Assembly (NCBI GenBank): GCA_001644045.1
Contig: LUUF01000077.1
Span: forward strand, 1 to 64,000
Direction of reading: 5' to 3'
Source of the DNA: Methylomonas methanica
GTDB taxonomy: Bacteria; Pseudomonadota; Gammaproteobacteria; Methylococcales; Methylomonadaceae
Length of the DNA stretch: 64,000 nt
Below, in pieces: positions 29,183 to 45,855 of this stretch. The position numbers and the translations under genes are program-made. The stretch's first letter is position 1; each line of letters begins with the position of its first letter. The notes under the pieces are model-generated. The model had not been told where the DNA came from. It saw nothing but the letters and a program-made list of their open reading frames with translations, and did not search any database.

Positions 29183-30568
29183 TCAGGCTTTGGCAAAACG
29201 CCGGCGTGAGCCGAATAGTACAACTAACAACAGCGCGGCCAGCGCCGCTTGTCCGGCTATCAAGTTTTGACAAGCCGCCGGATTTGCCGGCTGGGCAAAT
29301 GCAAAGCGGGGCTGATCGCGACGCATTTCATCGGTCCAGGCGGTATTCGTGATGATTTTAGGCACAAAATAGCCGCGCCATTGATCTTCGAAGTCGTTAA
29401 CCGCTTGAATGTACTCGGCGTAGCGCGGAGCATCGATGCCAGCCAGTCTATCGGCCATTTGCAGCGCGGCCATGGTCGGCGATAGCCAAGACCACGTTTC
29501 CAAAAATTCGAATTGCGCCTTGCGCGTGCTGTCGAAGCGGGACATCAAGGGCCGGATCTGTCGATCCAGAACCAAACCTGCCGGCAAACCGGCGATTTCG
29601 CGCGGTAACTCCTTGCCTGATGCCTGCGCCTTGATATCGGGATGGGCGGCATACCAGTCAGCCAACAGCGTATCGCGTTGTCGATTGTTTTGTTCCTGAA
29701 ACTGGCGGATGGCGATGATGCTATCTAGCCTGGACGGCATCGGCGCATGCCGGTCGGCGGCCCAAGCCAGTAACGCCGGGCCGGCAAAGGTTAGGATCAA
29801 CCAGACGCCCAGCATGCCGATGGCCGCCGCGCCAGAAGAGAAGGGCAGCAGTAGGAACAGGCCGGCAATGCCGAACCAGACCAGCGCGTAAAGTCCGCCG
29901 AATCCCAGCCAATAAGCCAGGGTATCCGGGCTAATTCCCGGATCGAGCAATAGCGCCAATAGCGAGCTGCCGAAAATCACCAGCACTACCACGCTATAGC
30001 GCACGCTCAGCGCGGCGCACACCAAGCGCCATGGCGTGGGCATTTGTGTGCAGACCAAACGCCAGACCCCGCTTTCCCGGTCTTCCTGCACCAGGCCGTA
30101 GCTCAACGCAATGACCATCAACGGCGTGAGTAAGGCAAACACGGTGGCAAAATCCAGCATGCCCAGCTCATGCAGCATCGGATTGAACAACTGATCGCTG
30201 TTACGGCCGTCGGTGTGGCGGCTGCGGGTGGAGATTTTGATGCCGGTACTTAAAAAATCCAATTGCCGCACGCTTAAGGCCAAACCGCCGAGGGCGGGCA
30301 GCCGCAAGGGCGGCGCGGCGGCGCTGGCGGAAAAAGTACTGGCTTTAGCTGCATTGTCCACCGCTTTCGGCGCGTCGTGCATCTCCGCTTGATTCGCCGT
30401 GGCATTGACCGCGTGCGGCGATGCGTTGCCGTGTAGGCGAAATTTGCGCGCAGCCAAACCCGACCAGGCGGCGCTACCCAGCATCACTAACAGAAACAGC
30501 CCCGTGACCCAAAGGTTTAAGGGGTTGCGTTTGAAACGCAGCCATTCGATGGCGATCAGTTGCATCAT
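29183..30568 (-). CDS. ABC exporter permease (DUF3526-type), second of two
   Basis: A 461-residue membrane protein with an N-terminal helix (about 17-38), a large extracytoplasmic loop (about 40-150), several helices between 150 and 290 and a second loop before the last helix at the C-terminus. The layout matches ABC-2 permeases of the DUF3526 group. The ATG at 30568 overlaps the stop of the first permease (ATGA); 18 extra upstream codons are possible but unlikely. It works with the permease and ATPase encoded upstream. Confidence 0.8.
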   Translation of the reverse strand: MMQLIAIEWLRFKRNPLNLWVTGLFLLVMLGSAAWSGLAARKFRLHGNASPHAVNATANQAEMHDAPKAVDNAAKASTFSASAAAPPLRLPALGGLALSVRQLDFLSTGIKISTRSRHTDGRNSDQLFNPMLHELGMLDFATVFALLTPLMVIALSYGLVQEDRESGVWRLVCTQMPTPWRLVCAALSVRYSVVVLVIFGSSLLALLLDPGISPDTLAYWLGFGGLYALVWFGIAGLFLLLPFSSGAAAIGMLGVWLILTFAGPALLAWAADRHAPMPSRLDSIIAIRQFQEQNNRQRDTLLADWYAAHPDIKAQASGKELPREIAGLPAGLVLDRQIRPLMSRFDSTRKAQFEFLETWSWLSPTMAALQMADRLAGIDAPRYAEYIQAVNDFEDQWRGYFVPKIITNTAWTDEMRRDQPRFAFAQPANPAACQNLIAGQAALAALLLVVLFGSRRRFAKA

Positions 30569-31977
30569 GGTGCCAGTCTCCGCGCGGAAAAGCTCAGCAT
30601 GCCAATCGATAAGCTCAGCCATAGCAACAGCACCAGTAAATCCAGTTCGGCTGTCCGCAACGCAAAACCGATACCCGGTGCTTGATAACTAAAGTCCGCC
30701 ACGCTGCGCCAATCGGCTTCCTCACCGATGGCCTTGCGCTCCGTGCCACGGCTGCGTTCGCGGTCCCAATCTTCGGTTAGATTGATGAAATATTGCCGGT
30801 ACTGCTCGGCGGCGTCTTCAAAATGCCGTTGATGCGCCAAATCCATGCCGGCCAGGGTCATGGACAAGGAGCGCAACGCAAGACTTGGACCCAGCCAGGA
30901 GCCGAGGTGGCTGAGGTGTTGTTGCCTGATAAAGTTGTCGCGCAAGGCGTCGAAATGCAGCGCGTGAACCTTAACGGAATAGGCGTCGTTATGCTGACGG
31001 CTTAAGGACACGAAACCGACCGGCAAATCTTCCTTGCGAGATACGCCGTACTGCGCCAGCAATTGCGCTTCGAAGGCCTTGGCGCGTTGCTCATGGTCGC
31101 CGTCGTGCTCCAGTCCATGCTCTATATCGTCCTTGATCTCACGCCAAAATTCGCTGGCACTGGGATTGGGCGCCAGCATTTCGGCACCCACGGCGCCCAG
31201 GCGCGGAGCGATAAATACGCTGACCAACCAAAAGGCTAACAGACAAAACAGTGTGGTGCGGCTGGTGCTGAAATACGCGGAAGCGGCAATCGCCAACGCG
31301 GCGAAGATGCCGTAGTACAGATTTAACAACAGCATTAACACCAGCAAGCGCAGCGCATCGTCCAGCGTAAACGCGAAATTACCCAACAAGATGACGGCGG
31401 CCAGTAACAGCGCTGGCGCCAACACCACGAAAAATGCGGCCATCAAGCCCAGCAATTTACCGAACAACAATTGCCCGGCGTCCACGCCTAAACTATGGAG
31501 CATGCGTAAGGTACCGGACTCGCGTTCCTGGCTGACCGAGTTAAAGGTCAAGGCCACAATCATTAATGGCAGCAACGCGGTCAACACAAAACTGGTGCTG
31601 GCTTCGCCGAAGCGGCCAGCCAATACTTGGTCCGCCGCCGGGCTGAAACGGGTCAGGTTGCGCTTATGCGGTTCCATCCATAAAGATTGGCCGGTATACG
31701 GACGCAAGCCCGGATCCAGCGCCGCCACCGGCGTGTCCTGTTTAAACACATAGATGCCGTAATGCGCGGCGGCATGCGGATTCTTGACGCTCTGGGTATT
31801 CCATTGCTCCTTGGCGGTGGTGCCGACGCTGTGTTTTTCCGCACGCAGCTGTTGCAGTTCGTACGCGGAAGCCAGGAAAAAGCCGGCAAATAACACCAGC
31901 AAGGCCATGCCCAAGGTCAGCAAGCGACCGTCGCGGAGTGTGGCGAGAAATTCTTTGCGGACGATGGTCTTGATCAT
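30565..31977 (-). CDS. ABC exporter permease (ABC-2/DUF3526-type), first of two
   Basis: A 470-residue membrane protein starting MIKTIVRKEFLATLRDGRLL, a common beginning for this permease group. It has an N-terminal helix, a large periplasmic loop (about 45-160), a bundle of helices between 170 and 290, and a final helix. The start at 31977 overlaps the ATPase stop; the frame continues upstream for 137 codons only as an out-of-frame copy of the ATPase gene and is not protein-like. The substrate is unknown. Confidence 0.82.
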   Translation of the reverse strand: MIKTIVRKEFLATLRDGRLLTLGMALLVLFAGFFLASAYELQQLRAEKHSVGTTAKEQWNTQSVKNPHAAAHYGIYVFKQDTPVAALDPGLRPYTGQSLWMEPHKRNLTRFSPAADQVLAGRFGEASTSFVLTALLPLMIVALTFNSVSQERESGTLRMLHSLGVDAGQLLFGKLLGLMAAFFVVLAPALLLAAVILLGNFAFTLDDALRLLVLMLLLNLYYGIFAALAIAASAYFSTSRTTLFCLLAFWLVSVFIAPRLGAVGAEMLAPNPSASEFWREIKDDIEHGLEHDGDHEQRAKAFEAQLLAQYGVSRKEDLPVGFVSLSRQHNDAYSVKVHALHFDALRDNFIRQQHLSHLGSWLGPSLALRSLSMTLAGMDLAHQRHFEDAAEQYRQYFINLTEDWDRERSRGTERKAIGEEADWRSVADFSYQAPGIGFALRTAELDLLVLLLWLSLSIGMLSFSARRLAP

Positions 31978-32699
31978 GCCAGCCCCCGGGCGTGAGCCAG
32001 ATATTTTTGTTCCAGTTCGTCGTGCTGCACGGTGTGGGCGTCGAATTCTTCCACCAGGCGGCCGTTTTTCATGATGCCGATGCGGTCGGCGACCTGCTTG
32101 GCGTTGAACAAATCGTGGGTCGCCATCAGCACCGCCATGCCTCGATCGGCGGCGGCGCGGATGCGTTGGGCGAAATCGTTGGCGGCGCTCGGGTCCAGGC
32201 CCGAGGTGGGTTCGTCCAGCAACATGGCTTTGGCCTGTTTCGCCGAGGCGATGGCCAAACCGACTTTTTGGCGCATGCCTTTGGAATAAGCGGCCACCCG
32301 TTTTTGGTGGGCGTCGGCTTGCAAACCGCTGTCCAGCAACAAGGCGTGGGCTTGGTCGTTGCTCAGACGGATATTGGCCAGGGTGCAAAAATAGGTCAGA
32401 TTCTCCAGGCCGCTCATCACGTCGTATAGTGCGACGTTTTCCGGCAGATAGGCCAGTTTCGCGCGCACCAGCTCGGCATTGGCGTGCGGCGATTCGCCTT
32501 CGATCAGCACCTGGCCGCTACTGGGGCGATTGAAAGTCAAAAAGGTGCTGATGGTCGTGGACTTGCCGGCACCGTTGCCGCCAAGCAGCGCATAGACGCA
32601 GCCCTTGGGGATTTGTAGGTTTAAGTTATCGACCGCGCGATGCTGCCGGTATTCGACAACCAGGTTTTGTGCGGTTAAAACGGGGATGGCGGCGTTCAT
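31974..32699 (-). CDS. ABC transporter ATP-binding protein
   Basis: A 241-residue ATPase. Walker A is GGNGAGKST, the signature motif is YSKGMRQKVG, Walker B with the following D-loop is AMLLDEPTSGLDPS, and the switch histidine is in ATHD. The final part is short. It energises the two DUF3526 permeases encoded downstream, and all three genes overlap by four bases, so the transporter is made from one transcript. Confidence 0.92.
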   Translation of the reverse strand: MNAAIPVLTAQNLVVEYRQHRAVDNLNLQIPKGCVYALLGGNGAGKSTTISTFLTFNRPSSGQVLIEGESPHANAELVRAKLAYLPENVALYDVMSGLENLTYFCTLANIRLSNDQAHALLLDSGLQADAHQKRVAAYSKGMRQKVGLAIASAKQAKAMLLDEPTSGLDPSAANDFAQRIRAAADRGMAVLMATHDLFNAKQVADRIGIMKNGRLVEEFDAHTVQHDELEQKYLAHARGLA

Positions 32700-32888
32700 A
32701 GGGGATAAGAGTTTGCAAGAGTGATCGACTGACGACGGCTAGTGCAAATGGCTTTCCGTCGCCTCCTGGGCTATCGGTAGTTTAACGCTAGATTGCGCTA
32801 ATCGCTTGAATTCATAAGACGTCCCTGTCCGGATAAGTTGATGCCGAAGCAGTGGATGCACACCGCTCACCATGAGGCATGGATTTAA

Positions 32889-32914
32889 CCGCCTGCGGTC
32901 TTGTCGGCAGGCGG
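32889..32914 (-). terminator. Stem-loop behind the efpL-like gene
   Basis: Arms CCGCCTGC (32889-32896) and GCAGGCGG (32907-32914) form a strong 8-base stem about ten bases after the stop at 32925. The following T run on the minus strand is weak, so termination is probable but not certain. Confidence 0.5.
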
Positions 32915-32924
32915 CAATTAAAAC

Positions 32925-33491
32925 TCAAGCCCGCGAAGTAAAATCGCCGGTTTCGGTATTGACCTTGATGATTTCGCCGGATTCGATGTATTCCGGGATC
33001 TGCACTTCCAGACCGGTGGTCAATTTCGCGGTTTTGGTGCGCTTGGTCGCGCTTGAACCCTTCATGGACGGCGGCGTTTCGACGATTTGCAAATTGACGG
33101 TGGTCGGCAGCTGGATGCCCAGCGGCGCGTCGTCCATCAACAACATGATGATGCCTTCCAGGCCGTCGGTCAGATACAGGGTCTGGCCTTCCAGGTCGTC
33201 CGCCGCCAGCGCATACTGATCGTAAGTCTCGCTGTTCATGAAGTAGTAGGTGTCGCCGTCTTGGTAGGAAAACTGCACGTTGCAGCGCGAACAGTCGGCG
33301 GCTTTCAGCATGTCGTCGCTTTTGAAGGTTTCATCCAATTTTTGCCGGGTTTTCATGTGCGTGAAACGGACTTTGTACAGCGTGGTCGCGCCGCGCGAAG
33401 TGGGGTTGCGCACGTCGATGTGTTTCACCACATACGGTTCGCCGTTGATTTCGATGGCGGTTCCCTGTTTCAGTTCGTTGGCTTTTGGCAC
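32925..33491 (-). CDS. efpL: Elongation factor P-like protein (EfpL/YeiP)
   Basis: A 188-residue, three-domain EF-P paralogue. The beginning MPKANELKQG and the loop NPTSRGATTLYK (R33 at its tip) match YeiP/EfpL, where arginine replaces the modified lysine of EF-P. EF-P family proteins relieve ribosomes stalled at polyproline and related motifs. Calling it ordinary efp would be wrong given this loop and the TVDLEIVE-like NLQIVETPPSMKG. It lies three bases after the bpt stop codon on the same strand. Confidence 0.88.
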   Translation of the reverse strand: MPKANELKQGTAIEINGEPYVVKHIDVRNPTSRGATTLYKVRFTHMKTRQKLDETFKSDDMLKAADCSRCNVQFSYQDGDTYYFMNSETYDQYALAADDLEGQTLYLTDGLEGIIMLLMDDAPLGIQLPTTVNLQIVETPPSMKGSSATKRTKTAKLTTGLEVQIPEYIESGEIIKVNTETGDFTSRA

Positions 33492-33494
33492 GGC

Positions 33495-34214
33495 TTAATC
33501 CTCTGTAAATGTATGATTTGAAATGGCTTGCCACTGGCCGTCCAACAGGCCGGTCAGCGGTTGATAATCGATTTTGTAGCGCATTTTACGACAGTCTTTG
33601 ATCCAGTAGCCCAGATAAAGATATTCCAGTCCCAATTGTTTGGCGGTTTCGATTTGCCATAACACCGCGTAAACGCCGGGGCTGTAGTCGGCAAAGTCCG
33701 GGTCAAAAAAGGTATACACCGCCGATAGCCCGTCGCTTACCACATCGACCACCGCCACCGCCGCCAATTGGCCGCCGATCAAAAATTCCACGAACAGCGT
33801 GTCGCACCAACTGCTACCCAAGAATTTGATGTAGTCGTCCGGGCTGGTCGGTTCTTCGCCGGGCTTGTCGTGACGGGCGTTTAGATAACGTTGATAAAGC
33901 CGGAAATGGCGTGGGTCGAACTCGGCGTCTTTAACGACTACCCGGGTTTGCGTATTGCGCTTGGCGCAGCGTTTTTGTTTACGGTCGGGACGGAATGCCG
34001 ACACCGGCAAACGCGTCGGCACGCAGGCTTGGCAAGATTCGCAATATGGCTTATAGACATGGTCGCCGCTACGCCGGAAGCCCTGAGCTATCAATTGCGA
34101 ATACAGCGGCGTGTCCATTTCCAGCGACGGATGCACGAAGCCGGAACGCGCGATGCGGTCGTCCAGATAGCCGCAGGCATGGCCGCTGTCCAGCCAAATG
34201 GGGATGGAGCTCAT
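33495..34214 (-). CDS. bpt: Aspartate/glutamate leucyltransferase (bacterial ATE family)
   Basis: A 239-residue member of the ATE/Bpt family, which transfers leucine from Leu-tRNA to N-terminal Asp or Glu and marks proteins for ClpAP. The cysteine motif CESCQACVPTR (about 57-67) and the C-terminal YLGYWIKDCRKMRYK are diagnostic. The ATG at 34214 overlaps the stop of aat by four bases; 47 extra upstream codons would be out-of-frame aat sequence. Together with aat it forms the N-degron pathway enzymes in one operon. Confidence 0.92.
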   Translation of the reverse strand: MSSIPIWLDSGHACGYLDDRIARSGFVHPSLEMDTPLYSQLIAQGFRRSGDHVYKPYCESCQACVPTRLPVSAFRPDRKQKRCAKRNTQTRVVVKDAEFDPRHFRLYQRYLNARHDKPGEEPTSPDDYIKFLGSSWCDTLFVEFLIGGQLAAVAVVDVVSDGLSAVYTFFDPDFADYSPGVYAVLWQIETAKQLGLEYLYLGYWIKDCRKMRYKIDYQPLTGLLDGQWQAISNHTFTED

Positions 34215-34903
34215 GCTTGCCAAGCGTCGGTACTCGGGGTTTGCTCGCAGAGCCTGTCCAGCAGTTCTACGAAGCGGCTGCGGGGAATTTCCGCCGCGCC
34301 GAGGCTTAGTAGATGCTCGCTGCTGACCTGGCAATCGATGAGTTGATAACCCCAAGCGCTAAGCTGCCGCACCAGATGTACAAACACGACTTTGGACGCA
34401 TCGGTTTTGCGATGGAACATCGATTCGCCGAAAAACACCTGGCCTATCACGATGCCGTAAAGGCCGCCTACCAGTTGTCCGTCCTGCCAGGCTTCACAGC
34501 TATGCGCTATACCCAGGTGGTGCAGAGCGACATAGGCTTGGCGAATGTCGTCGGTAATCCAGGTGCCGCCGTCTTCGCTACGCGGGGCCGCACAGGCATC
34601 AATCACCTGGCGAAAAGCGGTATCGTAACGAATCTCGAACAGTTGTTTGCGCAGGGTTTTAGCCAGGCTGCGGGAAATGTTCAAATGTTCCGGAAACAAC
34701 ACCAAGCGCGGATCTGGCGACCACCATAAGATGGGCTCGCCGGGATTGAACCAGGGAAATACCCCGTGCCGGTAGGCGTTGACGATGCGCTGCGGCGACA
34801 GGCAACCGCCAAAGGCCAGTAAACCGTTGGGTTGCTTCAAGGCCTTATGCAGAGGCGGGAAGGCTTGATGGGGATGGTCCGGATCGAGCAGGGTGAGTTG
34901 CAT
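34211..34903 (-). CDS. aat: Leucyl/phenylalanyl-tRNA-protein transferase
   Basis: A 230-residue Aat protein, full length. Diagnostic stretches are FPPLHKALKQPNGLLAFGG near the start, GVFPWF and WWSPDPRLVLFP, GGLYGIVIGQVFFGESMFH in the catalytic core, and LIDCQVSSEHLLSLGA. It transfers Leu or Phe to N-terminal Arg or Lys of target proteins. It precedes bpt with a four-base overlap. Confidence 0.95.
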   Translation of the reverse strand: MQLTLLDPDHPHQAFPPLHKALKQPNGLLAFGGCLSPQRIVNAYRHGVFPWFNPGEPILWWSPDPRLVLFPEHLNISRSLAKTLRKQLFEIRYDTAFRQVIDACAAPRSEDGGTWITDDIRQAYVALHHLGIAHSCEAWQDGQLVGGLYGIVIGQVFFGESMFHRKTDASKVVFVHLVRQLSAWGYQLIDCQVSSEHLLSLGAAEIPRSRFVELLDRLCEQTPSTDAWQA

Positions 34904-35026
34904 AAGCGGCGCGTAATCTCTAGCTGGGCGCTGGTTTGTGGAGTGACTTAGCCTGCAAATATTCGAGGGCGATGGCCGGCTTGGTTTTGTTCACGGCTTA
35001 GAAACGCAAGATTTTGCGTCGCAAAC

Positions 35027-35755
35027 TCAAGACGCATCCATTTTGTAACCAAAGCCGCGCACGGTTTTCAGCAGCTTCAGCTCGTAATCGTCATCGATCT
35101 TGCGCCGCAGCTGGCGGATATAAACGTCCACCACATTGGTGAGCGGATCGGCGCTATAGCCCCAGACTTGTTCCAGAATTCGAGTGCGGCTCAATACCTT
35201 GCCCGGCATGCGCATAAAACATTCCAGCAAGGCAAACTCCTTGGGCGTCAGCTCGATGACGGTATCGCCGCGTCGCACCTCGTGGGTTTCGCCGTTGAGT
35301 ACCAGGTCTTCGATGCGCAATTCCTTATCGTCCTGTTTCACTTCGCCGCCGCGCCGCCGCAGTAACACTTCGATACGGGCCAGCAATTCCTCGAAGGCGA
35401 AGGGTTTGGTCATATAGTCGTCGGCGCCGGAGCGCAGGCCGGACACTTTGTCTTGCACGGTATCGCGGGCCGTCAGCATCAATACCGGCGTGTCGATGCC
35501 GTTGCTGCGCAAGCGCTCGCAAATCTGCCGGCCGTTCATGTCCGGCAGGCCCAGATCCAGAATGATCACCTGAAAACTGCCTTCGGTACCCAAGGCAATG
35601 GCCTCTTGCCCGCTGCGGGCCACCTCCACGGCATAGCCCTCGGCTTTCAAGCCGCGTTGTACGAAATCGATGATGCGCTCGTCGTCTTCAACCATCAGCA
35701 CCCGCATATAGCCTATCCCCGTCAGAGTATTGGATGTCATGTACTTCTCATTCAT
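35027..35755 (-). CDS. OmpR/PhoB-family response regulator
   Basis: A 242-residue regulator. The receiver domain has the acidic pair in VEDDE, the phospho-acceptor D67 in LDLGLPDMNG, and K in KPFAFEEL; the C-terminal winged helix has PKEFALLECFMRMPGKVLSR and YIRQLRRKID. The ATG at 35755 has AGGGAG eight bases upstream, the best ribosome binding site; starting at 35707 (MRVLMVEDDE) would give the more usual length. It is the last gene of a four-gene operon, 12 bases after a complete histidine kinase, its likely partner. Confidence 0.92.
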   Translation of the reverse strand: MNEKYMTSNTLTGIGYMRVLMVEDDERIIDFVQRGLKAEGYAVEVARSGQEAIALGTEGSFQVIILDLGLPDMNGRQICERLRSNGIDTPVLMLTARDTVQDKVSGLRSGADDYMTKPFAFEELLARIEVLLRRRGGEVKQDDKELRIEDLVLNGETHEVRRGDTVIELTPKEFALLECFMRMPGKVLSRTRILEQVWGYSADPLTNVVDVYIRQLRRKIDDDYELKLLKTVRGFGYKMDAS

Positions 35756-35767
35756 ATGAAAATCTCC

Positions 35768-37354
35768 CTATGCTACCGTAAGCAGCGGTAGTGTAACCGT
35801 AAATGTCGATCCGGCGTTCTCGACACTACGCACCGCGATCTGGCCGCCATGGGCTTGCAGAATGGATTTGGCCATAGGCAAACCCAGGCCGGAGCCGTCG
35901 TCCCGTGAATGTTGGGCGTTGCTGCTGCGGAAGTGGCGTTCGAAAATCCGTTCCAGATCCTCGCTCGGTATGCCGATACCCTGATCGGTCAGACTGAAGC
36001 AGGCCTGTTTGCCGTCGCGCCATAAGGCCACGGCGATATGACCCAGCGGTTTGGAATAGCGGCAGGCATTCTCGCCCAGTATGAACAACACTTGCCTTAA
36101 CCGCTGTTTATCGCCGCGCACCAATAGCGGTCCGGTCGGGGCGTCCAGGCTGACCGAAATCGAATACTCTTGCGCCATCACCTGAAAATCCTCGACGCTG
36201 CTGCCGACCAAATCCGCCAGATCCACTTTGTTCCATTCGAATTGCAGATTGGCCGTGTCCGCGCGGGCCAGAAACAGTAAATCGTTGACGTATTTACCCA
36301 ATTGCATCGACAGCTCGACGATGCGTTGCAACGCGTCTTTGTATTCTTCGGCGTCGCGGTCCTGGCCGCGCAACGTCACTTCCGCCTCGCCGCGAATCAC
36401 CGTAATGGGTGTGCGCAGTTCATGGCTGATGTCCGCCAAAAACTCACGGCGGGCATTATCCATACGCTTTAATTCCTCATTCAACAGATTAAGTTCAAAC
36501 GTCCGCTCGGTTACCCGCTCTTCCAGCACCGCGCGACCTTCCCGGAGTTTATCCTGCTGAACTTCCAACTCCTTGGCCATTTGATTGAAGTGGCTGGCCA
36601 GATAGGCAAATTCGTCGCGGCTATCCAGGGAAATCCGGTAATCCAGATTGCCGGAGGCGATTTCGTCCGTACCTTTCATCAGTGCTTCGATCGGCGTTTT
36701 AAATGCACGGAGCAACAGTATGCCGGCTACCAGGCTGAACAGCGCTGCGGTTAACGAGGCCAAAATTGCGGTCCAACGTGATTTCTCGACCAGAATTTCC
36801 AGCTCCCGCTTGGCTTTCTTGGCCTTTTCCCGTTCGGCGTTAATTGCGGCATCGATCAAGGGCTGAAATTTGCCGTCGATTTCTTCTTCGGTGAACTTGG
36901 CCAGCACCTGCACGGCAGTGGTCAGCTTGCCCTGCAAGCGCAGCCGCTCCACTTCTTCGAAGCGATATTCGCTGGCTTCCAGGAAAGCGGTGAGATGGGC
37001 GACTTTTTCCAATTCGGCGGGTTTATTGGTCCAGTCTTCGCTGGCGCTGTCTTTGCCCGGCGTTTTGACTGCGGTATCACGCAGCGTTTGCATGGCCTCG
37101 TACAGGCGGCGCTTGGAGGATTCCACGCCGGTTTCCGAATTGGGATTGGCCGTTATCAGCCGGTCCATGCGCTGCTTGAAATGGCGATAGGCTTCCTGCG
37201 ACAGTTGCTCGTAATCGTCGAAGGTTTCGTACGCGGTTTGACTATGCTGAAAATAGCGGGCAACTTCGTTGGCTCCCCAATACAGGGCAATGCCCAAGCT
37301 CAATACAAAGCAGAAGGAGACAACAATAACTATCGCCAACCGAAACCGAAACAT
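35768..37354 (-). CDS. Sensor histidine kinase with HAMP domain
   Basis: A 528-residue inner-membrane kinase. Helices at about 5-27 and 195-215 enclose a helical periplasmic region; HAMP lies at 216-268 and a short coiled coil follows. H311 in FLADISHELRTP is the phospho-acceptor. The ATPase domain keeps the N-box (ILGENACRYS), DQGIGI and DGSGLGLPMAK. It is probably the partner of the OmpR-type regulator 12 bases downstream. The lipoprotein gene ends five bases upstream of its start. Confidence 0.92.
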   Translation of the reverse strand: MFRFRLAIVIVVSFCFVLSLGIALYWGANEVARYFQHSQTAYETFDDYEQLSQEAYRHFKQRMDRLITANPNSETGVESSKRRLYEAMQTLRDTAVKTPGKDSASEDWTNKPAELEKVAHLTAFLEASEYRFEEVERLRLQGKLTTAVQVLAKFTEEEIDGKFQPLIDAAINAEREKAKKAKRELEILVEKSRWTAILASLTAALFSLVAGILLLRAFKTPIEALMKGTDEIASGNLDYRISLDSRDEFAYLASHFNQMAKELEVQQDKLREGRAVLEERVTERTFELNLLNEELKRMDNARREFLADISHELRTPITVIRGEAEVTLRGQDRDAEEYKDALQRIVELSMQLGKYVNDLLFLARADTANLQFEWNKVDLADLVGSSVEDFQVMAQEYSISVSLDAPTGPLLVRGDKQRLRQVLFILGENACRYSKPLGHIAVALWRDGKQACFSLTDQGIGIPSEDLERIFERHFRSSNAQHSRDDGSGLGLPMAKSILQAHGGQIAVRSVENAGSTFTVTLPLLTVA

Positions 37355-37359
37355 TGGCG

Positions 37360-37935
37360 TTATTTGCCTTCGCTAGTTTCGTCCAGTTGTTTTTCCATCG
37401 AACGGATGGCTTCCAGTTTTTCTCGCAGCAATCTTGATTCTTCTTTCTTGGAGCCGGCGGCGTCTTTGGTCTCCAGCACGTTTTGCACGGTTTTTTGTTT
37501 GCGTTCCAACGAGCCGAGCTTTTTAGAGGTGCTGTTGACGCGTTTCAATGCTTCGCTATGAATGGCAACCAGATGGCGCATTCGTTCGTCGCCCAAGCTG
37601 GAGGGCGGGATGCCGGCAATTTCATCCAGAATTCTAGGAATGTCCCCGCAAGCGTCGGACAGCAGGCGGCCCACCAGCAAATGCAGCAATACTCCGATTT
37701 CGGGTTCGTCTTTTTGCCGTTTTACTAATGACCTGCAAGTCTCGGTGCGACTCGCTGTGTTCATGTTGGCCAGATTGTTGCCAAAATCCAGCAACTCGTC
37801 TATGTCGGAATGCACCACGGGGGTGTTGTAAACGGTTGGAAAATGTTCCCTGACGCTGGAATCCACTTCGGCGCAGCCGGCGATCGCCAACAATGCTGCG
37901 ATCAGCGCCGATACGCGCATAAATAGTAACTGCAT
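37360..37935 (-). CDS. QseG/YfhG-like lipoprotein
   Basis: A 191-residue protein with a lipoprotein signal: hydrophobic residues 8-18 and a lipobox ending AIAGC with C21 as the lipidated residue. The C-terminal third (about 130-191) is a charged coiled coil ending in an EKLEAIRSMEKQLDE pattern, as in QseG/YfhG lipoproteins, which sit between a GlrK-type kinase and its regulator in enterobacteria. The assignment is from position and the coiled-coil ending, not from close similarity. It lies five bases downstream of the GlrK-like gene. Confidence 0.65.
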   Translation of the reverse strand: MQLLFMRVSALIAALLAIAGCAEVDSSVREHFPTVYNTPVVHSDIDELLDFGNNLANMNTASRTETCRSLVKRQKDEPEIGVLLHLLVGRLLSDACGDIPRILDEIAGIPPSSLGDERMRHLVAIHSEALKRVNSTSKKLGSLERKQKTVQNVLETKDAAGSKKEESRLLREKLEAIRSMEKQLDETSEGK

Positions 37936-37940
37936 GTTGC

Positions 37941-39398
37941 TTAATTCTCCCCGTTTAACGGAATTTGAACCCGGATGCGGGCTCCTTGTTGGTCTTGACG
38001 GGCATCGATAACTTCCACTTTGCCTTGATGGTTGGCGACGTATTCCTTGACGATGGCCAAGCCCAGACCTGGGCCGTCATTATCGCCTGTTTCGCCGGCC
38101 TTGCCGCGATAAAAGGGTTCGAAGACATGGTCGCGTTCGTCGGCGGCGATACCGGGACCCTCGTCTTCCACTTCCAGTTCCATCAGCGTGCCGGCGTCGC
38201 GCAGGATAATGCGAATTTCGCCTTCCTCCGGCGAATATTTCACGGCGTTGGTTAGTAGCTGCTCGATAATCGCGCGCAATTGCTCCGGAATGCCGGAAAT
38301 TTCCACCGGCCGGGCCAGCATGCGGATGGCGATGGCTTTGCTGCTTAACACGGGTTGGAAATCTTCGACCACGGTTTCCAGCAAATCCTTGATGTTTACG
38401 CTTTCCTTGCGTTTCATATCGGGCAGGGAGTTGATCTGGCTGTAGCGCAGCAGTTCCTCGGATACCGTGTTTAACTTTTCAATATTCGCGCATAAATGCA
38501 GCGCGGTATTTTCCCGCTTGCTGTGCGGGTCGTAGTCGGTTTCGCTGGCCAGCAGCTCGGCGTCCTGGCGCAGGCTTGCCAACGGCAGCTCAATCTCGCG
38601 GGCGACGTTTTGCATAAATTGTTGTTTGGATACTTCCAGTTCCAGCAAATGGGTGCGCAGCCATTCCAGACGGTTGCCCAGATAACGTAAATCCGACGGG
38701 CCGTTCACCAGAATCGGTTCGGCTAGCTCGCCCGCGCCCAGACGGCGTATCGATACGTCGAGCTGCCGCATCGAACGCGACAGCACGATCAACAGGATCG
38801 CGATCACGCTGAACGAAATCGCCAGCAATACCGCGCCTTTGACCAGCAAGCCGTGCTCCAGCGATTCCGACAATTGATGTAGCTCGTTGAATTCGTGATC
38901 GACATGGTTTTCAAACTCTCGCGATAGCGTGGCGGCGGATTCGCGCAAGCCCTGAAAAGCCTCGTCTATCGGCAGCTCCAGATTGTTTTCGTCATCCGAA
39001 CCGATGATTTGTTCGTAAATCAGGTTTTCTTTTTCCGACAATTCGTTAACCAGCAGCGCGATTTTGTTATCCACATGCAGTTTCAGTAAATCGCTCAAAG
39101 CCTGTTTAAACGAGGCCCGCACCGTTTCGTAGGACTGCCGCTCGTAGGGCTGGCGTAGCGTCGGGTCGGATAGCAATACGAATAGCTTGGCCTTACGCTC
39201 TATGTCGGACGCTTTTTGTAAAACAAGGCGGATGGTTTTGGTTTGTTCGAAGACATGGGTGTTCACCGTCCGGCCCAGCGCGGAGGTTTCGCGCATGCCG
39301 AAAGCAGCGTACATCACGGCCAGAAACAGCGGAATCACAGCAATGACAAAGCCCAGAACGATCAGGGACTTTAACGATAAAAAATTTTTAAATTTCAT
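37941..39398 (-). CDS. GlrK/QseE-like sensor kinase without phospho-accepting histidine
   Basis: A 485-residue membrane protein with helices at about 10-30 and 187-207. The juxtamembrane stretch GPSDLRYLGNRLEWLRTHL closely follows E. coli GlrK. The dimerisation box reads FMQNVAREIELPLASL: R267 stands where GlrK and other kinases have the phosphorylated His, and the ELRTP/ELKTP motif is also changed. The ATPase domain looks intact, with LLTNAVKYS, DEGPGIA and GPGLGLAIVKEY. The protein probably cannot autophosphorylate by the normal route and may instead bind ATP and modulate the complete kinase encoded two genes downstream. First gene of the operon. Confidence 0.88.
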   Translation of the reverse strand: MKFKNFLSLKSLIVLGFVIAVIPLFLAVMYAAFGMRETSALGRTVNTHVFEQTKTIRLVLQKASDIERKAKLFVLLSDPTLRQPYERQSYETVRASFKQALSDLLKLHVDNKIALLVNELSEKENLIYEQIIGSDDENNLELPIDEAFQGLRESAATLSREFENHVDHEFNELHQLSESLEHGLLVKGAVLLAISFSVIAILLIVLSRSMRQLDVSIRRLGAGELAEPILVNGPSDLRYLGNRLEWLRTHLLELEVSKQQFMQNVAREIELPLASLRQDAELLASETDYDPHSKRENTALHLCANIEKLNTVSEELLRYSQINSLPDMKRKESVNIKDLLETVVEDFQPVLSSKAIAIRMLARPVEISGIPEQLRAIIEQLLTNAVKYSPEEGEIRIILRDAGTLMELEVEDEGPGIAADERDHVFEPFYRGKAGETGDNDGPGLGLAIVKEYVANHQGKVEVIDARQDQQGARIRVQIPLNGEN

Positions 39399-39801
39399 CC
39401 GTGTGCGAGAAGCAATAAATCACTCCATAGTATAGATGAAACGGCATTCTTAAAATTGTCCATAAATCAGTCACAAACGGCGTTGTCCAGGTGCTTATGC
39501 GCTGGCGATTGAAAATCGGGCGATAAAAACCGAAGGCCCTGAGTTTAAAAAAAGGTAAATAAGGAGGGGGAACTGCCCTGGAGCCACCAGCGGTCATGGG
39601 TTAGAAACAATCTTTTTTGATCCCGAACCGATGCCCGCCGCTGTCTGGCCGTTAGCTCGAGCGTCCAAGCCAAGCAAAATTGGAAATCGTCTATCATTAA
39701 GCACCGAATCGTTAGCATTGATTGGCGATTTTCGACCAGAAAAGCGACTCAAGACAATCACTTGTTTAAGCCTCTTACCGACACTACCATTGGCGCTGGC
39801 T
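39399..39801. other. Spacer of about 400 bases without a clear gene
   Basis: This is the divergent region between the kinase operon and the small genes that follow. An open frame continues through much of it into the next gene, but the translated part is of low complexity and not protein-like. I see no convincing promoter. Confidence 0.45.
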
Positions 39802-40230
39802 ATGAAATCAACCATGAAAATCGATGGAGCTCTCTGCGCTGTTGGTGCCATCAACCTGCATTTTCAGTATTTCCTCGACGATGGCCCGCCGCATGCCTGG
39901 TTGAATATTCATTCCGACTCCAAAGATGATAGTCTTGCCGGTCTCGCCATCAATTGCTTGGATATCGGCGACATTCCCACCTTAGACGGCATCTACGAAC
40001 GCACCTTTTCCTATGATCATACGGACGAGACTGATGGCGCCGAACTTAGTGAAAGCGTGTTCTGGCAGCCGGACCAGGAGACCTTGGAGATTTCGTCCCT
40101 GCAATTACGCTTCGGTATGCCTCAAGACGATTTACTACCGCTCGAAATTGTCGCCAAGTGCTCGGACTACGAAAGTAGGCAAGACATTTCGGTAGTCATC
40201 ACTGGCCAGGCGACAGTTGCTTCAAGTTAG
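39802..40230 (+). CDS. Unknown small acidic protein
   Basis: A 142-residue acidic protein with no signal or membrane helix (MKSTMKIDGALCAVGAIN at the start). The ATG at 39802 or that at 39814 may be used; neither has a good ribosome binding site. I do not recognise the fold; alternating hydrophobic strands and many Asp and Glu residues recall immunity-type proteins. It lies 58 bases before a SUKH-like gene on the same strand. Confidence 0.5.
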   Translation: MKSTMKIDGALCAVGAINLHFQYFLDDGPPHAWLNIHSDSKDDSLAGLAINCLDIGDIPTLDGIYERTFSYDHTDETDGAELSESVFWQPDQETLEISSLQLRFGMPQDDLLPLEIVAKCSDYESRQDISVVITGQATVASS

Positions 40231-40288
40231 CGGCAAGTGCTCATAGTGACTTTCCATTCTCAAATCCATCGCAACAGGAGATGTTCCA

Positions 40289-40906
40289 TTGAAACTTAAT
40301 GACCTTGAAAAAGCCGTTCGTGAGCATGCCGGTGAATTTTTGTGCGAACGTATCAACGACGAAGACAAAACAAAAACCGTCAGTTTCACGCATGTTGTCG
40401 ATGCACCTGAGGACTCAAACGATTTGCCGACGGTGGGCAGGCTCCGTGACTTTTACGAAACCTTTGGCGGCATTCTGTTTTACTACGATAAAAAAAGCGG
40501 GGATGCGGCGAAGCGCATAGCACCCAGTTCGGAATGGGCCGAATTACATGCAGACTTCAGCGATTGGCTTGAGCCGTTGGACGAAGACGAACGTCTCGAG
40601 ATTCTGCCGGATTGGATCGACACCTGTCTGGTTATCGGCGAAACACCGCGCTCCGGAAACTATATTCTGGTTGCAACCGAAGGACCGACAGCCGGGCGAG
40701 TGTTTGAGTTTGACCATGATGGCTACGAATTCACTGACGAAGCGGCGGACATCGTCGAATACGTGGAAAAACTCCTGAAGCCCGATGGTATCAAACTGGT
40801 CGATATTGCCTCTCACATGCGGTTCATTGAGGGCGACCCGATGGTGCAATGGTGGATCAGAGAACTCAGGGACAATGCCGGCCATGTTGCCAGCACACAG
40901 GCTTAA
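40289..40906 (+). CDS. SMI1/KNR4 (SUKH)-like protein
   Basis: A 205-residue acidic, cytosolic protein. The pattern of RLRDFYETFGGILFYY, the WLEPLDEDER region, and SGNYILVATEGPTAGRVFEFDHDGYEF fits the SMI1/KNR4 fold, in which a strand carrying xDGxxxLxxxxxGxVYxxDHDGxExxxxA is common. Such proteins often serve as immunity proteins in polymorphic toxin systems. The start is a TTG at 40289 with AGGAG eight bases upstream. A second SUKH-like gene follows with an overlap or within a few bases. Confidence 0.66.
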   Translation: MKLNDLEKAVREHAGEFLCERINDEDKTKTVSFTHVVDAPEDSNDLPTVGRLRDFYETFGGILFYYDKKSGDAAKRIAPSSEWAELHADFSDWLEPLDEDERLEILPDWIDTCLVIGETPRSGNYILVATEGPTAGRVFEFDHDGYEFTDEAADIVEYVEKLLKPDGIKLVDIASHMRFIEGDPMVQWWIRELRDNAGHVASTQA

Positions 40907-41792
40907 CGCTTTGTCTCGTCCTAAAAGGCCGTCGGGAGGGGTGTTCAGCGCGTTAAAAATATTTCTCTCAGCATTGCTCTTGGCGACGAGTATCGGCTGC
41001 ACGGATCGAGAACCAGCAACAAACTCAAAAGACAGATCAGATTCAGCAAACACCATCTCCATTGATTCAGGGTACGCAAGCGGGGAGCAAGATTGGCGAA
41101 GCTTTCTCACTTGCTGGAGAACGGCGGTACAAGCCCGGTTGGCGCGCGGCGAAAGTTACACGTCACTGAAAAGCCTGCCGCCTTCTCTAAACCAGGTATC
41201 GGCAACGACATCAACGTCGGAACTCGCGGTTGCCGATGCAGAGCGTCGACTGAACGTTAAACTTCCAGCGTCATACAGACACTTTGTGCTTGCCAGCGGC
41301 AATGCTGAATGGTTCATCGAATCCTTCGGAACGCTTGACGGAGATGGAAAGCTCAGCAACGTTTCCGCAATCGATGTCTATCCGCTTGCAGACCCGAAGA
41401 ACTTTGGCTATTGGTCGAGCACGGGACCGGATACGTTAATCCTTGAGGCCCGGAAGTATCTACGCTACGGCTATCACACCGAGCCATTGCTGCGACAAGA
41501 CAGCGCTTACTTCAGAATCGATCAACTCGACAGCCTGATCAAGGTCGGCGATCTCGATCAAGGCGGCGCGATACTACTAAATCCCAAGGTAATCAGTGCC
41601 GATGGCGAAATGGAGGCTTGGCTGCTGTCGTTCAAATCAGGCGCATCCCGCTACCGCTCGTTCGCGGAGCTGATGCAGAACCTTGCTTACCTGGATATTC
41701 AGATGGATAAGGCGCAATCGAGCATTGCCACGCCCAACGTCCTCCGGGAGGTGGAATGCACGAAAATGCTGGTTACTGCGGCTAGCCGCTGA
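40884..41792 (+). CDS. SMI1/KNR4 (SUKH)-like lipoprotein
   Basis: A 302-residue protein with a basic N-terminus, a hydrophobic stretch (ALKIFLSALLLATSIGC) and a lipobox ending SIGC, so it is probably lipid-anchored. Residues about 100-260 carry a SUKH-like pattern: an N-terminal helix with VADAERRLNVKLPASYRHFV followed by FIESFGTLDGDGKL. The ATG at 40884 overlaps the previous gene by 23 bases; a TTG at 40911, just behind that gene's stop, gives a cleaner signal peptide and is equally likely. Lipoprotein forms of SUKH proteins are uncommon, and the target is unknown. Confidence 0.6.
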   Translation: MLPAHRLNALSRPKRPSGGVFSALKIFLSALLLATSIGCTDREPATNSKDRSDSANTISIDSGYASGEQDWRSFLTCWRTAVQARLARGESYTSLKSLPPSLNQVSATTSTSELAVADAERRLNVKLPASYRHFVLASGNAEWFIESFGTLDGDGKLSNVSAIDVYPLADPKNFGYWSSTGPDTLILEARKYLRYGYHTEPLLRQDSAYFRIDQLDSLIKVGDLDQGGAILLNPKVISADGEMEAWLLSFKSGASRYRSFAELMQNLAYLDIQMDKAQSSIATPNVLREVECTKMLVTAASR

Positions 41793-41852
41793 GGCCCAAG
41801 ACTCAGCCGACACCACCCATTCAATTTTACCCACCACCAACAGGAAACAACG

Positions 41853-42272
41853 ATGAGTATGACGCTTTGGTTGAACATCCGCGACGACGAAACCTACGAG
41901 AGCAACGGCGAAGATCATTCCGCCGTCTTCTACCTGCAAGAGCCTCTGGATGCGCTGGCTGACAAACTGAATGTCACCCCGCTCAGCGCGTTTTATGACG
42001 ATACTGACGTGCGTTACAACATGGACGAAACCGGCGAGTTCGATGACGCTGAAGAAGGCTGGCCGGCATCCGCCGCGAATTGGTTCCCGGCCGAAGCCGT
42101 CTTGTCTTCGGTATCGGTCATATTGGACCACCTGCAAACCAATCCCGAAGCGTTAACAACCACAGACGGCTGGAAGCAAGAAGACGTGATCGAAGATCTG
42201 ACCGATTTTAAGTCCGAGCTGGAACGTGCCGCAGCGCAGTCAAAAACCGTCCATCTTTGTATCGTCATGTGA
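41853..42272 (+). CDS. Unknown small acidic protein
   Basis: A 139-residue, strongly acidic protein starting MSMTLWLNIRDDETYES, with AGGAAA eight bases upstream of the ATG. It has no signal peptide. The sequence looks like a soluble immunity-type or DUF1877-like fold, but I cannot assign a family. It is the last of four small genes in this block and converges on napC, 40 bases away. Confidence 0.55.
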   Translation: MSMTLWLNIRDDETYESNGEDHSAVFYLQEPLDALADKLNVTPLSAFYDDTDVRYNMDETGEFDDAEEGWPASAANWFPAEAVLSSVSVILDHLQTNPEALTTTDGWKQEDVIEDLTDFKSELERAAAQSKTVHLCIVM

Positions 42273-42312
42273 CAGTAATCCTCACCATCAAAACCAAACA
42301 CCCGCTTCTTGG

Positions 42313-42918
42313 TCAATGCTGGGGATCAATAGCCGCACTAGGGTCTTCTTCGTACATGGCCGGCAAGGAGTGAGCGATGCCTTTGTGGCAATCGATACAG
42401 GTTTTTCCTTCAGCAAAGCCTTTGATATGCTGCGGTACCGAGCGGCGGCGCTGTTTGGTGTAATCCATCGATTGATAATCGTGGCAGTTGCGGCACTCGC
42501 GCGAATCGGTGTTTTTCATCGCCTTCCAGACGTGCCGCGCCAGTTCAAGGCGCTTAGCCTCGAATTTTTCCGGGGTAGCGACCGAGCCCAGGATCTTGTG
42601 ATAAAGCTCGTTGGTGGCTTGGATTTTTCTGACCAGTTTGTGATGCCATTGCTTAGGCACGTGACAGTCCGGGCAGGTCGCTCTGACACCGCTATGATTG
42701 TTGTAATGAATGGTGTTTTTGTATTCCTGGTAGACGTTTTCCTCCATCTCGTGGCAGGAGATGCAGAAGGTTTCGGTATTGCTGAGTTCCAAGGCGGTAT
42801 TGAAGCCACCCCAGAACAAGACGCCGCCGACAAAGCCGATGGCGGCGATACTGCCTAAGGAATAGCGCGCGGATGGCGTCGCCAGCCAGAGCCAAAACGC
42901 TTTGAGCCCCTTAATCAC
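42313..42918 (-). CDS. napC: NapC/NirT-type tetrahaem cytochrome c
   Basis: A 201-residue quinol dehydrogenase with an N-terminal membrane helix (about 22-42) and four CxxCH haem sites: CISCH, CPDCH, CRNCH and CIDCH. It passes electrons from the quinol pool to the periplasmic NapAB nitrate reductase. It is the last gene of the nap operon and overlaps the napB stop region by eight bases. Methionine and histidine ligands typical of the family are present in HEMEE and nearby. Confidence 0.93.
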   Translation of the reverse strand: MIKGLKAFWLWLATPSARYSLGSIAAIGFVGGVLFWGGFNTALELSNTETFCISCHEMEENVYQEYKNTIHYNNHSGVRATCPDCHVPKQWHHKLVRKIQATNELYHKILGSVATPEKFEAKRLELARHVWKAMKNTDSRECRNCHDYQSMDYTKQRRRSVPQHIKGFAEGKTCIDCHKGIAHSLPAMYEEDPSAAIDPQH

Positions 42919-43372
42919 GGGGCACCGCCGGATTGGCTTCGGGTTTTGCCCAGGCGGGTTTGAAGCGGTTGTTTACCACTGGGCTGGCATTGGTTTGCGG
43001 CACATGGCATTGCACGCAAAAATAGCGGCGGGCGGCGACATTGGCCAAATCCTGGCCTTCGCGGTCGGAAAAGTGAGTCAGGCTGATTTTGGTGGCGCCG
43101 GATTCCTTATAGTTGGCCCAGCTATGGCAGGTTAGACATTTATTGAATTTTTGGTTGATTACGTAGCCGTCGATGGCATGCGGTATCACGGGCGGTTGTT
43201 GGGTAAATTGCCGGGGTTGCGGTTCGGTATCCTGCCATTGATGGATTTGCGGCGGTTCGGAAAGATTGGGAATCGGATTGCGGCCTCGTTCGGAACTGAA
43301 CGTCGATGGTTCTTGGGCATTGACCATGAATGCCAGAGTCATTAGCAAAGCTATAGCAGCGATACGCATCAT
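42911..43372 (-). CDS. napB: Periplasmic nitrate reductase small subunit (dihaem cytochrome c)
   Basis: A 153-residue protein with a cleavable signal ([20 protein letters not shown]) and two haem sites, CLTCH and CVQCH. It hands electrons from NapC to the catalytic subunit NapA. The start at 43372 overlaps the napA stop by one base; the longer upstream reading has no signal peptide and is unlikely. Confidence 0.92.
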   Translation of the reverse strand: MMRIAAIALLMTLAFMVNAQEPSTFSSERGRNPIPNLSEPPQIHQWQDTEPQPRQFTQQPPVIPHAIDGYVINQKFNKCLTCHSWANYKESGATKISLTHFSDREGQDLANVAARRYFCVQCHVPQTNASPVVNNRFKPAWAKPEANPAVPRD

Positions 43373-45855
43373 CACACTTTCTCCACTTTGACCGCGCATT
43401 TTTTGTAGTCGGTTTCTTTCGAAATCGGACAGGTCGCATCCAGGGTCAGCTTGTTGACCAGGCGCTTGGCGTCGAACCACGGAATGAAAATCAAACCGCG
43501 TGGTGGACGGTTACGACCGCGGGTTTCGACTTGCGCCAGCATCTCGCCCCGGCGGGATTTAATCTTGGCCGGCATACCGCGGCTCAAGCCCCGGTCCTTG
43601 GCGTCATCCGGATGCATGTACACCAAGGCTTCCGGCATGGCTTTGTGCAGTTCCGGCACCCGTTGCGTCATCGAGCCGGAATGCCAATGCTCCAGCACCC
43701 TGCCAGTGCTGAACCATAGATCATATTCCGCATCTGGCACTTCCGCCGGCGGCTCATAAGGCAAGGCAAAAATCACCGCCTTGCCGTCCGGTTTGCCGTA
43801 AAAGCGCAGGCCTTCGCCGGTTTTGACATAGGGGTCGTAGCCTTCACGGAAACGCCACAAGGTTTCGTGGCCGGCAACCACCGGCCAGCGCAGGCCGTGT
43901 GCTTCATGATAGGCATCGAATGGTGCCAGATCGTGGCCGTGACCGCGCCCGAATTCGGCGTATTCCTCGAACAAACCTTTTTGCAGATAAAAGCCGAAAT
44001 GCTGGGATTCGTCGTTGTCGAAACCTTTTTGCATATCGCTTACGGGATATTGATTGACCTTGCCGTTGGCGTACAACACGTCATATAAGGTTTTGCCGCG
44101 ATATTCCGGCTTGGCGGCCAGCAATTCCTCCGGCCAGACCTCTTCGGTTTTGAAATATTTGGCAAACTCCACCAATTGCCATAAGTCCGATTTGGCTTCG
44201 CCCGGCGCTTTGACTTGCTGGCGCCAAAATTGGGTACGACGCTCGGCGTTGCCATATGCACCTTCTTTTTCCACCCACATCGCGGTCGGCAGAATCAAGT
44301 CGGCGGCGCTGGCGGTCACCGTGGGGTAAGGATCGGAGACGACGATGAAATTGTCCGGATTACGGTAGCCGGGCCAGGTTTCTTCGTTCAAATTGGCGGC
44401 GGCCTGCATGTTGTTGTTGCACATAACCCAGTAGGCATTCAGCTTGCCGTCTTTCAACATGCGGTTTTGCTGCACGGCATGAAAGCCCGGTTTATCGGGG
44501 ATGGTGCCTTCCGGCAGTTGCCAATGTTTTTCGGCGATGTCGCGATGTTCTTTTTTATCGACCACCATGTCGGCCGGCAAGCGATGCGAAAAGGTGCCGA
44601 CTTCGCGGGCGGTGCCGCAGGCCGAGGGCTGGCCGGTCAACGAAAACGGACTATTGCCGGGCTCGGCGATCTTGCCGGTCAGCAAATGGATGTTGTAGAT
44701 CAGGTTGTTGGCCCAAGTGCCGCGGCTATGCTGATTAAAGCCCATGGTCCAGAACGAGGTCACCTTGATGTTGGGATTAGCGTACAGTTCAGCCAACGCG
44801 ATCAAATCTTTTTCCGGCACGCCGGACAGCGCGGCGGTTTTTTCCACGCTGTATTCGGCGACGAATTTTTTATATTCGTCGAAACTCATCGGCTGACCGC
44901 CGCCGACTTTGTCGGCATTCTTGGCGGCTTTTTCTTTGTCGTGTTCCGGCCGCAAGCCGTAGCCGATGTCGGCATTGCCGAGTTGGAAAGTGGTGTGTTT
45001 ATCGACGAAGTCGCGATTAACCTTGTTTTGCTGGATGATGTAATTGGCGATGAAATTCAAAATCGCCAGATCGGTTTGCGGGATAAACACCAAACCGAGA
45101 TCGGCCAGATCGAAGTTGCGATTGGTAAAGGTGGACAACACCGCCACTTTGACATGCTCGTCAGTCAGGCGCCGGTCGGCGATGCGCGACCACAAAATCG
45201 GATGCATCTCCGCCATGTTGGCGCCCCATAACACGAAGGCATCGGCATGTTCGATGTCATCGTAACAGCCCATGGGCTCGTCGATACCGAAAGTGCGCAT
45301 AAAGCCGGCAACCGCCGAGGCCATGCAGTGGCGGGCATTGGGATCGAGATTATTGCTGCGAAAGCCGGCTTTCATCAATTTGCTGGCCGCGTAACCCTCC
45401 CAGACCGTCCATTGGCCGGAACCGAACATGCCGACGCTGGTGGGGCCTTTGCTCTTCAAAGCTTGCTTCCACTTATCGGCCATGATTTGAAAAGCCTGCT
45501 CCCAGGAAATTTCGGTGAACTCGCCGTTTTTGTCGTACTGGCCATCGGTCATGCGCAACAGCGGTTTGGTCAGCCGGTCCTCGCCATACATGATCTTGGA
45601 CAAAAAATAGCCTTTCACGCAGTTCAAACCGCGATTGACCGGCGACGCCACATCGCCTTGGGTTGCTACCACCCGGCCGTTTTGCGTGCCGACCAACACG
45701 CTGCAACCCGTACCGCAAAAACGGCAAGGGGCCTTGTCCCACCGGATCATGTCGCGCTGTTGGGCTTCGGCGGCGGTGCTTAAGGAAATGCCGGCAGCAG
45801 CGGCAGTGGCTGCAACCGCGTTGATTTTGATAAATTCACGCCGGTTCAATTTCAT
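43372..45855 (-). CDS. napA: Periplasmic nitrate reductase catalytic subunit
   Basis: An 827-residue molybdoenzyme with a twin-arginine signal (NRREFIK, R5-R6). C44, C47, C51 and C79 bind the [4Fe-4S] cluster, and C177 in NARHCMAS is the probable molybdenum ligand, as in NapA rather than NarG (aspartate). It reduces nitrate to nitrite in the periplasm with bis-MGD cofactor. NapD, encoded upstream with a four-base overlap, is its maturation chaperone. The length is normal for the family. Confidence 0.97.

Follow-up and report, generated by a model that had tools for sequence, protein, structure and literature searches.

How does a sensor kinase that has lost the histidine it should phosphorylate come to be kept intact beside a second, complete kinase? 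The question is raised by a four-gene operon in a 64,000-nucleotide stretch of Methylomonas methanica DNA (assembly GCA_001644045.1, contig LUUF01000077.1, positions 1 to 64,000; hereafter the window), in which a GlrK/QseE-type kinase, here K1, is followed by a lipoprotein, a second kinase, K2, and an OmpR-type response regulator. Because of the loss of the histidine, the shifted constraint on K1, the history of the operon and the joint presence of the two kinases, taken together, we lean towards reading K1 as a receptor pseudokinase that is bound by the lipoprotein and controls K2. The four genes are co-directional, on the minus strand, with intergenic spacings of 5, 5 and 12 bases in the order K1, lipoprotein, K2, regulator:

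37941-39398, minus strand: K1, putative GlrK/QseE-type sensor pseudokinase, 485 residues (open reading frame; Pfam HATPase_c present, HisKA absent; 59-sequence clade)
38598-38600, minus strand: codon CGC for R267, the phospho-acceptor position of K1 (codon reading and alignment)
39159-39206, minus strand: the stretch DIERKAKLFVLLSDPT, K1 residues 65-80, which corresponds in the alignment to the segment of QseE that binds QseG (contact residues from PMC12691602)
37360-37935, minus strand: QseG-type lipoprotein, 191 residues, lipobox Cys21 with codon at 37873-37875 (open reading frame, alignment and structure-model comparison)
37378-37431, minus strand: the stretch LLREKLEAIRSMEKQLDE, lipoprotein residues 169-186, the counterpart in the alignment of the end of E. 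coli QseG that binds QseE (KLENLTDIERQL)
35768-37354, minus strand: K2, complete histidine kinase, 528 residues, H311 (Pfam HAMP, HisKA, HATPase_c)
36422-36424, minus strand: codon of the K2 phospho-acceptor His311 (open reading frame and alignment)
35027-35755, minus strand: OmpR-type response regulator, 242 residues, Asp67 (Pfam Response_reg, Trans_reg_C)

The initial annotation of this locus, made from the DNA letters, had placed an Arg at the phospho-His of the first kinase, and the codon and alignment bear it out; it was also right that the neighbouring box is altered (REIELP in K1, HELKTP in E. coli GlrK), that the N, D and glycine motifs of the ATP site are retained, and that a complete second kinase and an OmpR-type regulator follow, with which the Pfam domains listed above agree. 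To place R267 among its relatives, K1 homologs were collected from whole genomes and named contigs and 97 loci were read; two contig-edge fragments were excluded from trees and counts (L140, with Leu at position 267, and L142, in which the position is not covered), and with identical proteins counted once and the window added this gave 59 members of the K1 clade, from Methylomonas, Methylobacter, Methylovulum, Methyloglobulus and others, and 13 canonical copies. On the suggested check of whether orthologues conserve the Arg, Arg stands at position 267 in 46 of the 59 members and His is absent from 55; six other residues also occur (L 4, H 4, E 2, N 1, Y 1, K 1). The Thr four residues after the acceptor (H+4) is required for phosphatase activity in kinases of this kind, and it is present in 2 of the 59 clade members versus all 13 canonical Methylococcales copies, which likewise all have the acceptor His; Glu at H+1 is found in 56 of the 59. 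The box is HELKTP in all five canonical copies taken from further genera of this family (L149-L153). A read error or recent mutation at R267 was considered and is ruled out by eight close Methylomonas genomes (K1 94-97% identical), all of which have Arg, encoded by CGC in seven and CGT in one. In several Methylobacter-type loci, L117, L128 and L136 among them, the predicted K1 frames begin about 30-70 codons further upstream than in Methylomonas.

In a 72-row tree the K1 clade and the canonical copies are fully separated (100/100 support). His occurs in four rows of the clade (Methylomonas koyamae SM2, Methylomonas sp. SURF-1 and two more), which are nested within Arg rows and joined to an Arg row (100/98); their box is HEIEAP, with the Thr still absent. 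Because of this nested position the four are best read as a reversion, and we infer a regain of His: retention of an ancestral His would need at least six separate losses, read from the starred branches of the tree, versus one regain, and CGC to CAC is one base change. Exact placement in the tree is unsure for several rows with long branches (L053, L056 and L057 among them). Relatives with His, which the initial annotation had named as the sign of a recent mutation or read error, do occur, but among close orthologues they are limited to this one nested clade of M. koyamae and close kin, and recent mutation is excluded for that reason. By comparison of these sequences the loss of the phospho-His is old and more than a local mutation. 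K1 combines a conserved loss of the acceptor with an intact gene under selection, the mark of a pseudo-histidine-kinase, and the alignments support it as a GlrK/QseE descendant and conserved pseudokinase; its Arg forms almost certainly lack autokinase activity. Database names for the K1 relatives are "GlrK" or sensor histidine kinase, labels that conceal the missing residue.

Constraint in K1 is distributed in an inverted manner. For pairs of 35-50% overall identity, the median identities of the sensor, HAMP, dimerization and histidine phosphotransfer (DHp) and catalytic ATP-binding (CA) parts were 55.7, 51.0, 25.8 and 39.5 in the K1 clade (291 pairs) versus 26.4, 54.9, 56.4 and 45.0 in canonical GlrK (38 pairs), and in 287 of 291 K1 pairs, versus 3 of 38 canonical ones, the sensor was more conserved than the ATPase part; these comparisons, like the K1/K2 correlation given below, use related rows and are not independent tests. 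The most variable part is the sensor in true GlrK and the phospho-acceptor domain in K1. Against four relatives, K1 has dN/dS (nonsynonymous to synonymous substitution rate ratio) values of 0.03-0.06 over the whole protein and 0.005-0.009 over the sensor, which indicates purifying selection at the sequence level. In one lineage (L054 and L055, genomes G034 and G005) the N-box Asn has become Leu and two G2 glycines are lost, with the operon, the sensor and the contact motif kept; the ATP site is kept in most other K1 rows. The cytoplasmic part of a structure model of K1 matches ATP- and ADP-bound kinases, and DivL chains (4q20) are among the matches.

The sensor of K1 points to QseE. Sensor profiles of K1 and GlrK/QseE aligned with a probability of 98.8 over 152 columns (hhalign), and phmmer matched K1 residues 8-481 to chain 9m08_C of the QseG-QseE complex with an E-value of 2e-38. 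The residues of the QseG-QseE contact are known from cryo-EM (PMC12691602); K1 E67, R68, K71, L75, L76, D78 and T80 align with QseE E69, R70, R73, V77, L78, D80 and T82, and E67 and R68 are invariant in 31/31 rows. On the lipoprotein side the lipobox Gly20-Cys21 and 11 of the 18 positions of residues 169-186 are invariant in 23/23 rows (L084 and L143 have a wrong or short reading frame, and the profile used in the selection and sensor comparisons left out L084 and the canonical rows L058 and L062), and the QseG contacts L209, E213 and R214 correspond to I177, E181 and K182, one identical and two conservative. Most contact positions are thus kept on both sides of the alignment, R219 of QseG excepted. 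Among 526 chains aligned to a model of the lipoprotein, the three QseG entries rank first; QseG was absent from the 50 Foldseek matches listed for the lipoprotein, and neither the window lipoprotein nor its profile retrieved QseG when solved structures were searched by sequence. Pfam Lipoprotein_20, which E. coli QseG matches, has no match in the window lipoprotein, nor in L151, the sole canonical Methylococcales copy scanned. The assignment as a QseG homolog is supported by the aligned sequences, and the likeness to QseG noted in the initial annotation holds by the C-terminal contacts and the lipobox; the lipoprotein very probably binds K1.

K2, from its sequence, looks like a normal working kinase. 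The His and Thr of its HELRTP box are present in all 56 rows that cover the box (19 of 75 rows stop before it), and its DHp domain is the best kept part in three of four identity bands (at 50-60%, DHp 74.7 and sensor 47.1; 225 pairs). The phospho-acceptor Asp of the regulator is found in 46/46 rows, and in those genus loci that gave a match for it this protein is 69-98% identical; one of the four regulator comparisons in the dN/dS set (L036) was skipped for unequal length. The two kinases occur together. In a 201-genome sample of the family (cut-off E <= 1e-100), full-length K1 was found in 44 genomes and K2 in the identical 44, the two matches always sharing a contig and lying 338-846 bases apart; G023 and G121 have contig-edge K1 fragments and no K2, and the 16 genomes whose best K1 match was 25-31% identical had no K2 at E <= 1e-100. 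Among 61 relatives, K2 (E <= 1e-60) was present in 29 and K1 in 29/29 of these, in one as a fragment (G017). Identity to the window was correlated between K1 and K2 over 40 genomes (rank r 0.82; partial r 0.81 after a control gene, the transferase gene at 33495-34355); correlation with the control gene was weak for K1 (0.29) and moderate for K2 (0.44), and four of the 44 genomes were left out (the window itself, G073 and G138 with no control-gene match, and G063, not among the rows listed). The step from K1 to K2 has as its whole basis this shared presence, the gene order and the co-divergence, from which we judge that K1 probably acts on K2.

The gene order of E. coli K-12 is glrK-qseG-glrR. 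Likewise, in L058-L070, the 13 canonical loci from related families, and in L149-L153, a His kinase is followed by a small gene and then by a regulator of 445-472 residues, with Sigma54_activat present in all five of the regulators scanned (L058, L059, L060, L151 and L153). Matches of GlrR grade (505-555 bits) were found in 14 of 61 genomes, 13 of them beside a canonical kinase; the other genome (G060) has no full-length kinase among the matches listed. None was found in the 37 genus genomes, where the best NtrC-type match scored 329 bits, and K2 and the OmpR-type regulator stand in place of the canonical sigma54-type gene, in accord with the replacement first suggested from the window. The genome of the window (G000) was also checked for another GlrK or GlrR, and the idea was rejected: the next K1 match covers residues 157-463 only (91.7 bits), and the best NtrC-type matches are of generic grade (310 bits). 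In the 37 named loci the order K1-lipoprotein-K2 is found in 34, with the regulator next in 29 and the remaining five reaching the contig end; L138 and two fragments depart from this order. In two deep lineages both pairs are present but separate: the genome of L138 has K2-regulator and K1-lipoprotein about 21 kb apart on one contig, and in G057, of another family, the positions are 0.54 Mb for K1-lipoprotein, 2.0 Mb for K2-regulator and 2.56 Mb for a canonical glrK-qseG-glrR. Because G057 holds both the pseudokinase pair and the canonical set (L052, L146, L058), the pseudokinase may have started out as an additional copy. For L057 (G020), an orthologue of the regulator, 73% identical, is on another contig (L158, G020:C5:41690-42391), apart from K1-lipoprotein-K2.

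A fitting history would have a glrK-qseG pair lose GlrR, its sigma54-type partner, and be rewired to K2 and its regulator, a pair unrelated to it, at first unlinked and later in one operon. The signal would then run from the QseG-type lipoprotein to the pseudokinase receptor K1, to K2 and to the OmpR-type regulator: K1, as a QseE-derived receptor, would bind the lipoprotein on the periplasmic side and relay a signal from the cell envelope to K2, whose predicted phosphorylation target is the regulator. We infer both the contact of K1 with K2 in the membrane, through a mixed complex or allosteric coupling via the HAMP/DHp helices, and its sign. The fullest form of this account, which could go either way, is a four-part envelope pathway in which a methanotroph lineage broke a QseE kinase, kept it as the receptor of a periplasm-spanning lipoprotein and coupled it to an unrelated kinase, exchanging a sigma54 activator for an OmpR-type output; the pseudokinase would serve purely as a signal adaptor, one that stayed stable over the life of a bacterial family, and the His-regaining clade would be a natural reversal. 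Two-component pathways are thought of as insulated pairs, and the stepwise transfer of an input to a new output is rarely seen; here the likely steps survive in living genomes, as canonical glrK-qseG-glrR, as unlinked pseudokinase and K2 pairs, and as the fused operon. The methanotroph system is well suited to studying how a live kinase can be driven by one that is dead, and the His-regained clade offers a natural control.

Several known systems resemble parts of this arrangement. QseE/QseG/QseF (GlrK/QseG/GlrR) of enterobacteria has the homologous sensor, the same kinase-lipoprotein order and most of the contact positions (PMC12691602), and QseE/QseF activity in E. coli requires QseG (PMC6075780); unlike it, K1 has neither the phospho-His (H259 in GlrK/QseE) nor the H+4 Thr, the operon has no sigma54-type regulator, and the lipoprotein is followed by another, complete kinase and a regulator of OmpR type. 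That a kinase-like protein can steer another kinase is known from RocA, DivL, RetS and a ChrS variant (PMC7028121, PMC4211667, PMC5992135, PMC9491836, PMC12189002). RocA of the RocA-CovRS system of group A Streptococcus is likewise a sensor-kinase-like pseudokinase acting through another complete kinase, but, unlike the operon described here, no lipoprotein is mentioned in the excerpted text of PMC7028121. In Pseudomonas aeruginosa one sensor kinase, RetS, alters another, GacS (PMC5992135). Phosphate passes from GacS-P to RetS, which is also active as a phosphatase, whereas K1 has lost both the His and the H+4 Thr. DivL has a Tyr in place of the His. In Caulobacter this pseudo-histidine-kinase likewise controls a second kinase, CckA (PMC12189002; PMC4211667), but DivL uses PAS domains and binds a phospho-regulator, whereas for K1 a periplasmic sensor and a lipoprotein partner are predicted. 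Within the literature searched, the new element is a QseE-derived pseudokinase that, together with its lipoprotein, would have been rewired to an unrelated kinase and a regulator of another class; among open-licence PMC papers no joint paper was found for Methylomonas, histidine kinase and pseudokinase, and nothing among the matches listed concerned a QseE-type pseudokinase, neither of which is proof of absence.

Other explanations have to be set beside this one. K1 might have lost its own acceptor but still, in a mixed dimer, phosphorylate the His of K2 with its ATP domain; N, D and most glycine-box residues are kept, and the modelled cytoplasmic part resembles nucleotide-bound kinases, yet the L054/L055 lineage kept operon, sensor and contact motif after its ATP site was damaged, and the DHp domain, through which the dimer would form, is the least conserved part of K1, making such a split enzyme unlikely. 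The kinase-like core might instead bind the phosphorylated regulator of the operon, or another, and report on or sequester it, for which there is a precedent in the binding of phosphorylated DivK by the pseudokinase DivL (PMC4211667) and, in the structure matches, the DivL chains; but the DHp domain on which a regulator would dock diverges fastest in K1 while the regulator stays so highly identical, and we regard this as quite unlikely. It is also quite improbable that K1 and the lipoprotein have a separate output, with K2 and the regulator mere operon neighbours, since the two pairs, although unlinked in G057 and in the genome of L138, share genomes even there and coincide in 44/44 of the family sample. 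A decaying, functionless glrK remnant would account for the erosion of catalytic motifs in several lineages, but the full-length matches listed for the clade contain no stops, dN/dS is low and the sensor is kept across genera, and we consider decay very improbable. Least credible is Arg267 as a new phospho-acceptor or required chemical switch: Arg is the commonest residue at the position, but Leu, Lys, Glu, Asn, Tyr and His are also found in clade members, and required Arg chemistry was rejected on these six.

For K1 as a lipoprotein-bound receptor that controls K2, the following observations count on the opposite side. The inversion of constraint is less one-sided in the 50-60% band, where the sensor is above the CA part in 56 of 108 K1 pairs. 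The ATP-site Asn and Asp are kept in 57/59 and 59/59 clade members, and therefore some ATP-dependent role of K1 may remain. At the interface, QseE Q74, V77 and E140 are not kept as such in K1, and QseG R219 and K220 are not conserved, the window lipoprotein having Thr187 and Ser188; loss of R219 abolished binding in Salmonella (PMC12691602), and the R219/K220 pair is absent from the aligned canonical Methylococcales copies too. No homology was found between the sensors of K1 and K2 (hhalign probability 2), and an ordinary heterodimer is therefore not implied by homology. K2 is correlated with the control gene as well (partial r 0.37), and linked genes that move together co-diverge and co-occur anyway.

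In the search for a conserved operator, 61 upstream stretches were inspected by eye over their last 140 bases, and only a TATACT-like element stood out; it lies upstream of K1 (window 39420-39446), is common to the close Methylomonas and the M. koyamae group, and is a possible -10 box. Promoter and terminator scans gave no more than in shuffled sequence, and a tRNA scan of window positions 30000-45000 found none. After the regulator come aat (Pfam Leu_Phe_trans), ate and efp (32925-34903, minus strand; the last two names are our own labels), which are likewise behind the regulator in several Methylomonas loci and were not seen beside it in Methylobacter-type loci. Upstream of the operon are genes resembling those of periplasmic nitrate reductase (43372-45855 and 42313-43480, minus strand), a NapA-like protein of 827 residues and two proteins with haem motifs, named from a reading of their translations. 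Between these and the kinase operon lie two SUKH/SMI1-type genes (40289-41792, plus strand), one above the Pfam cut-off and the other weak; genes of this type frequently encode immunity proteins.

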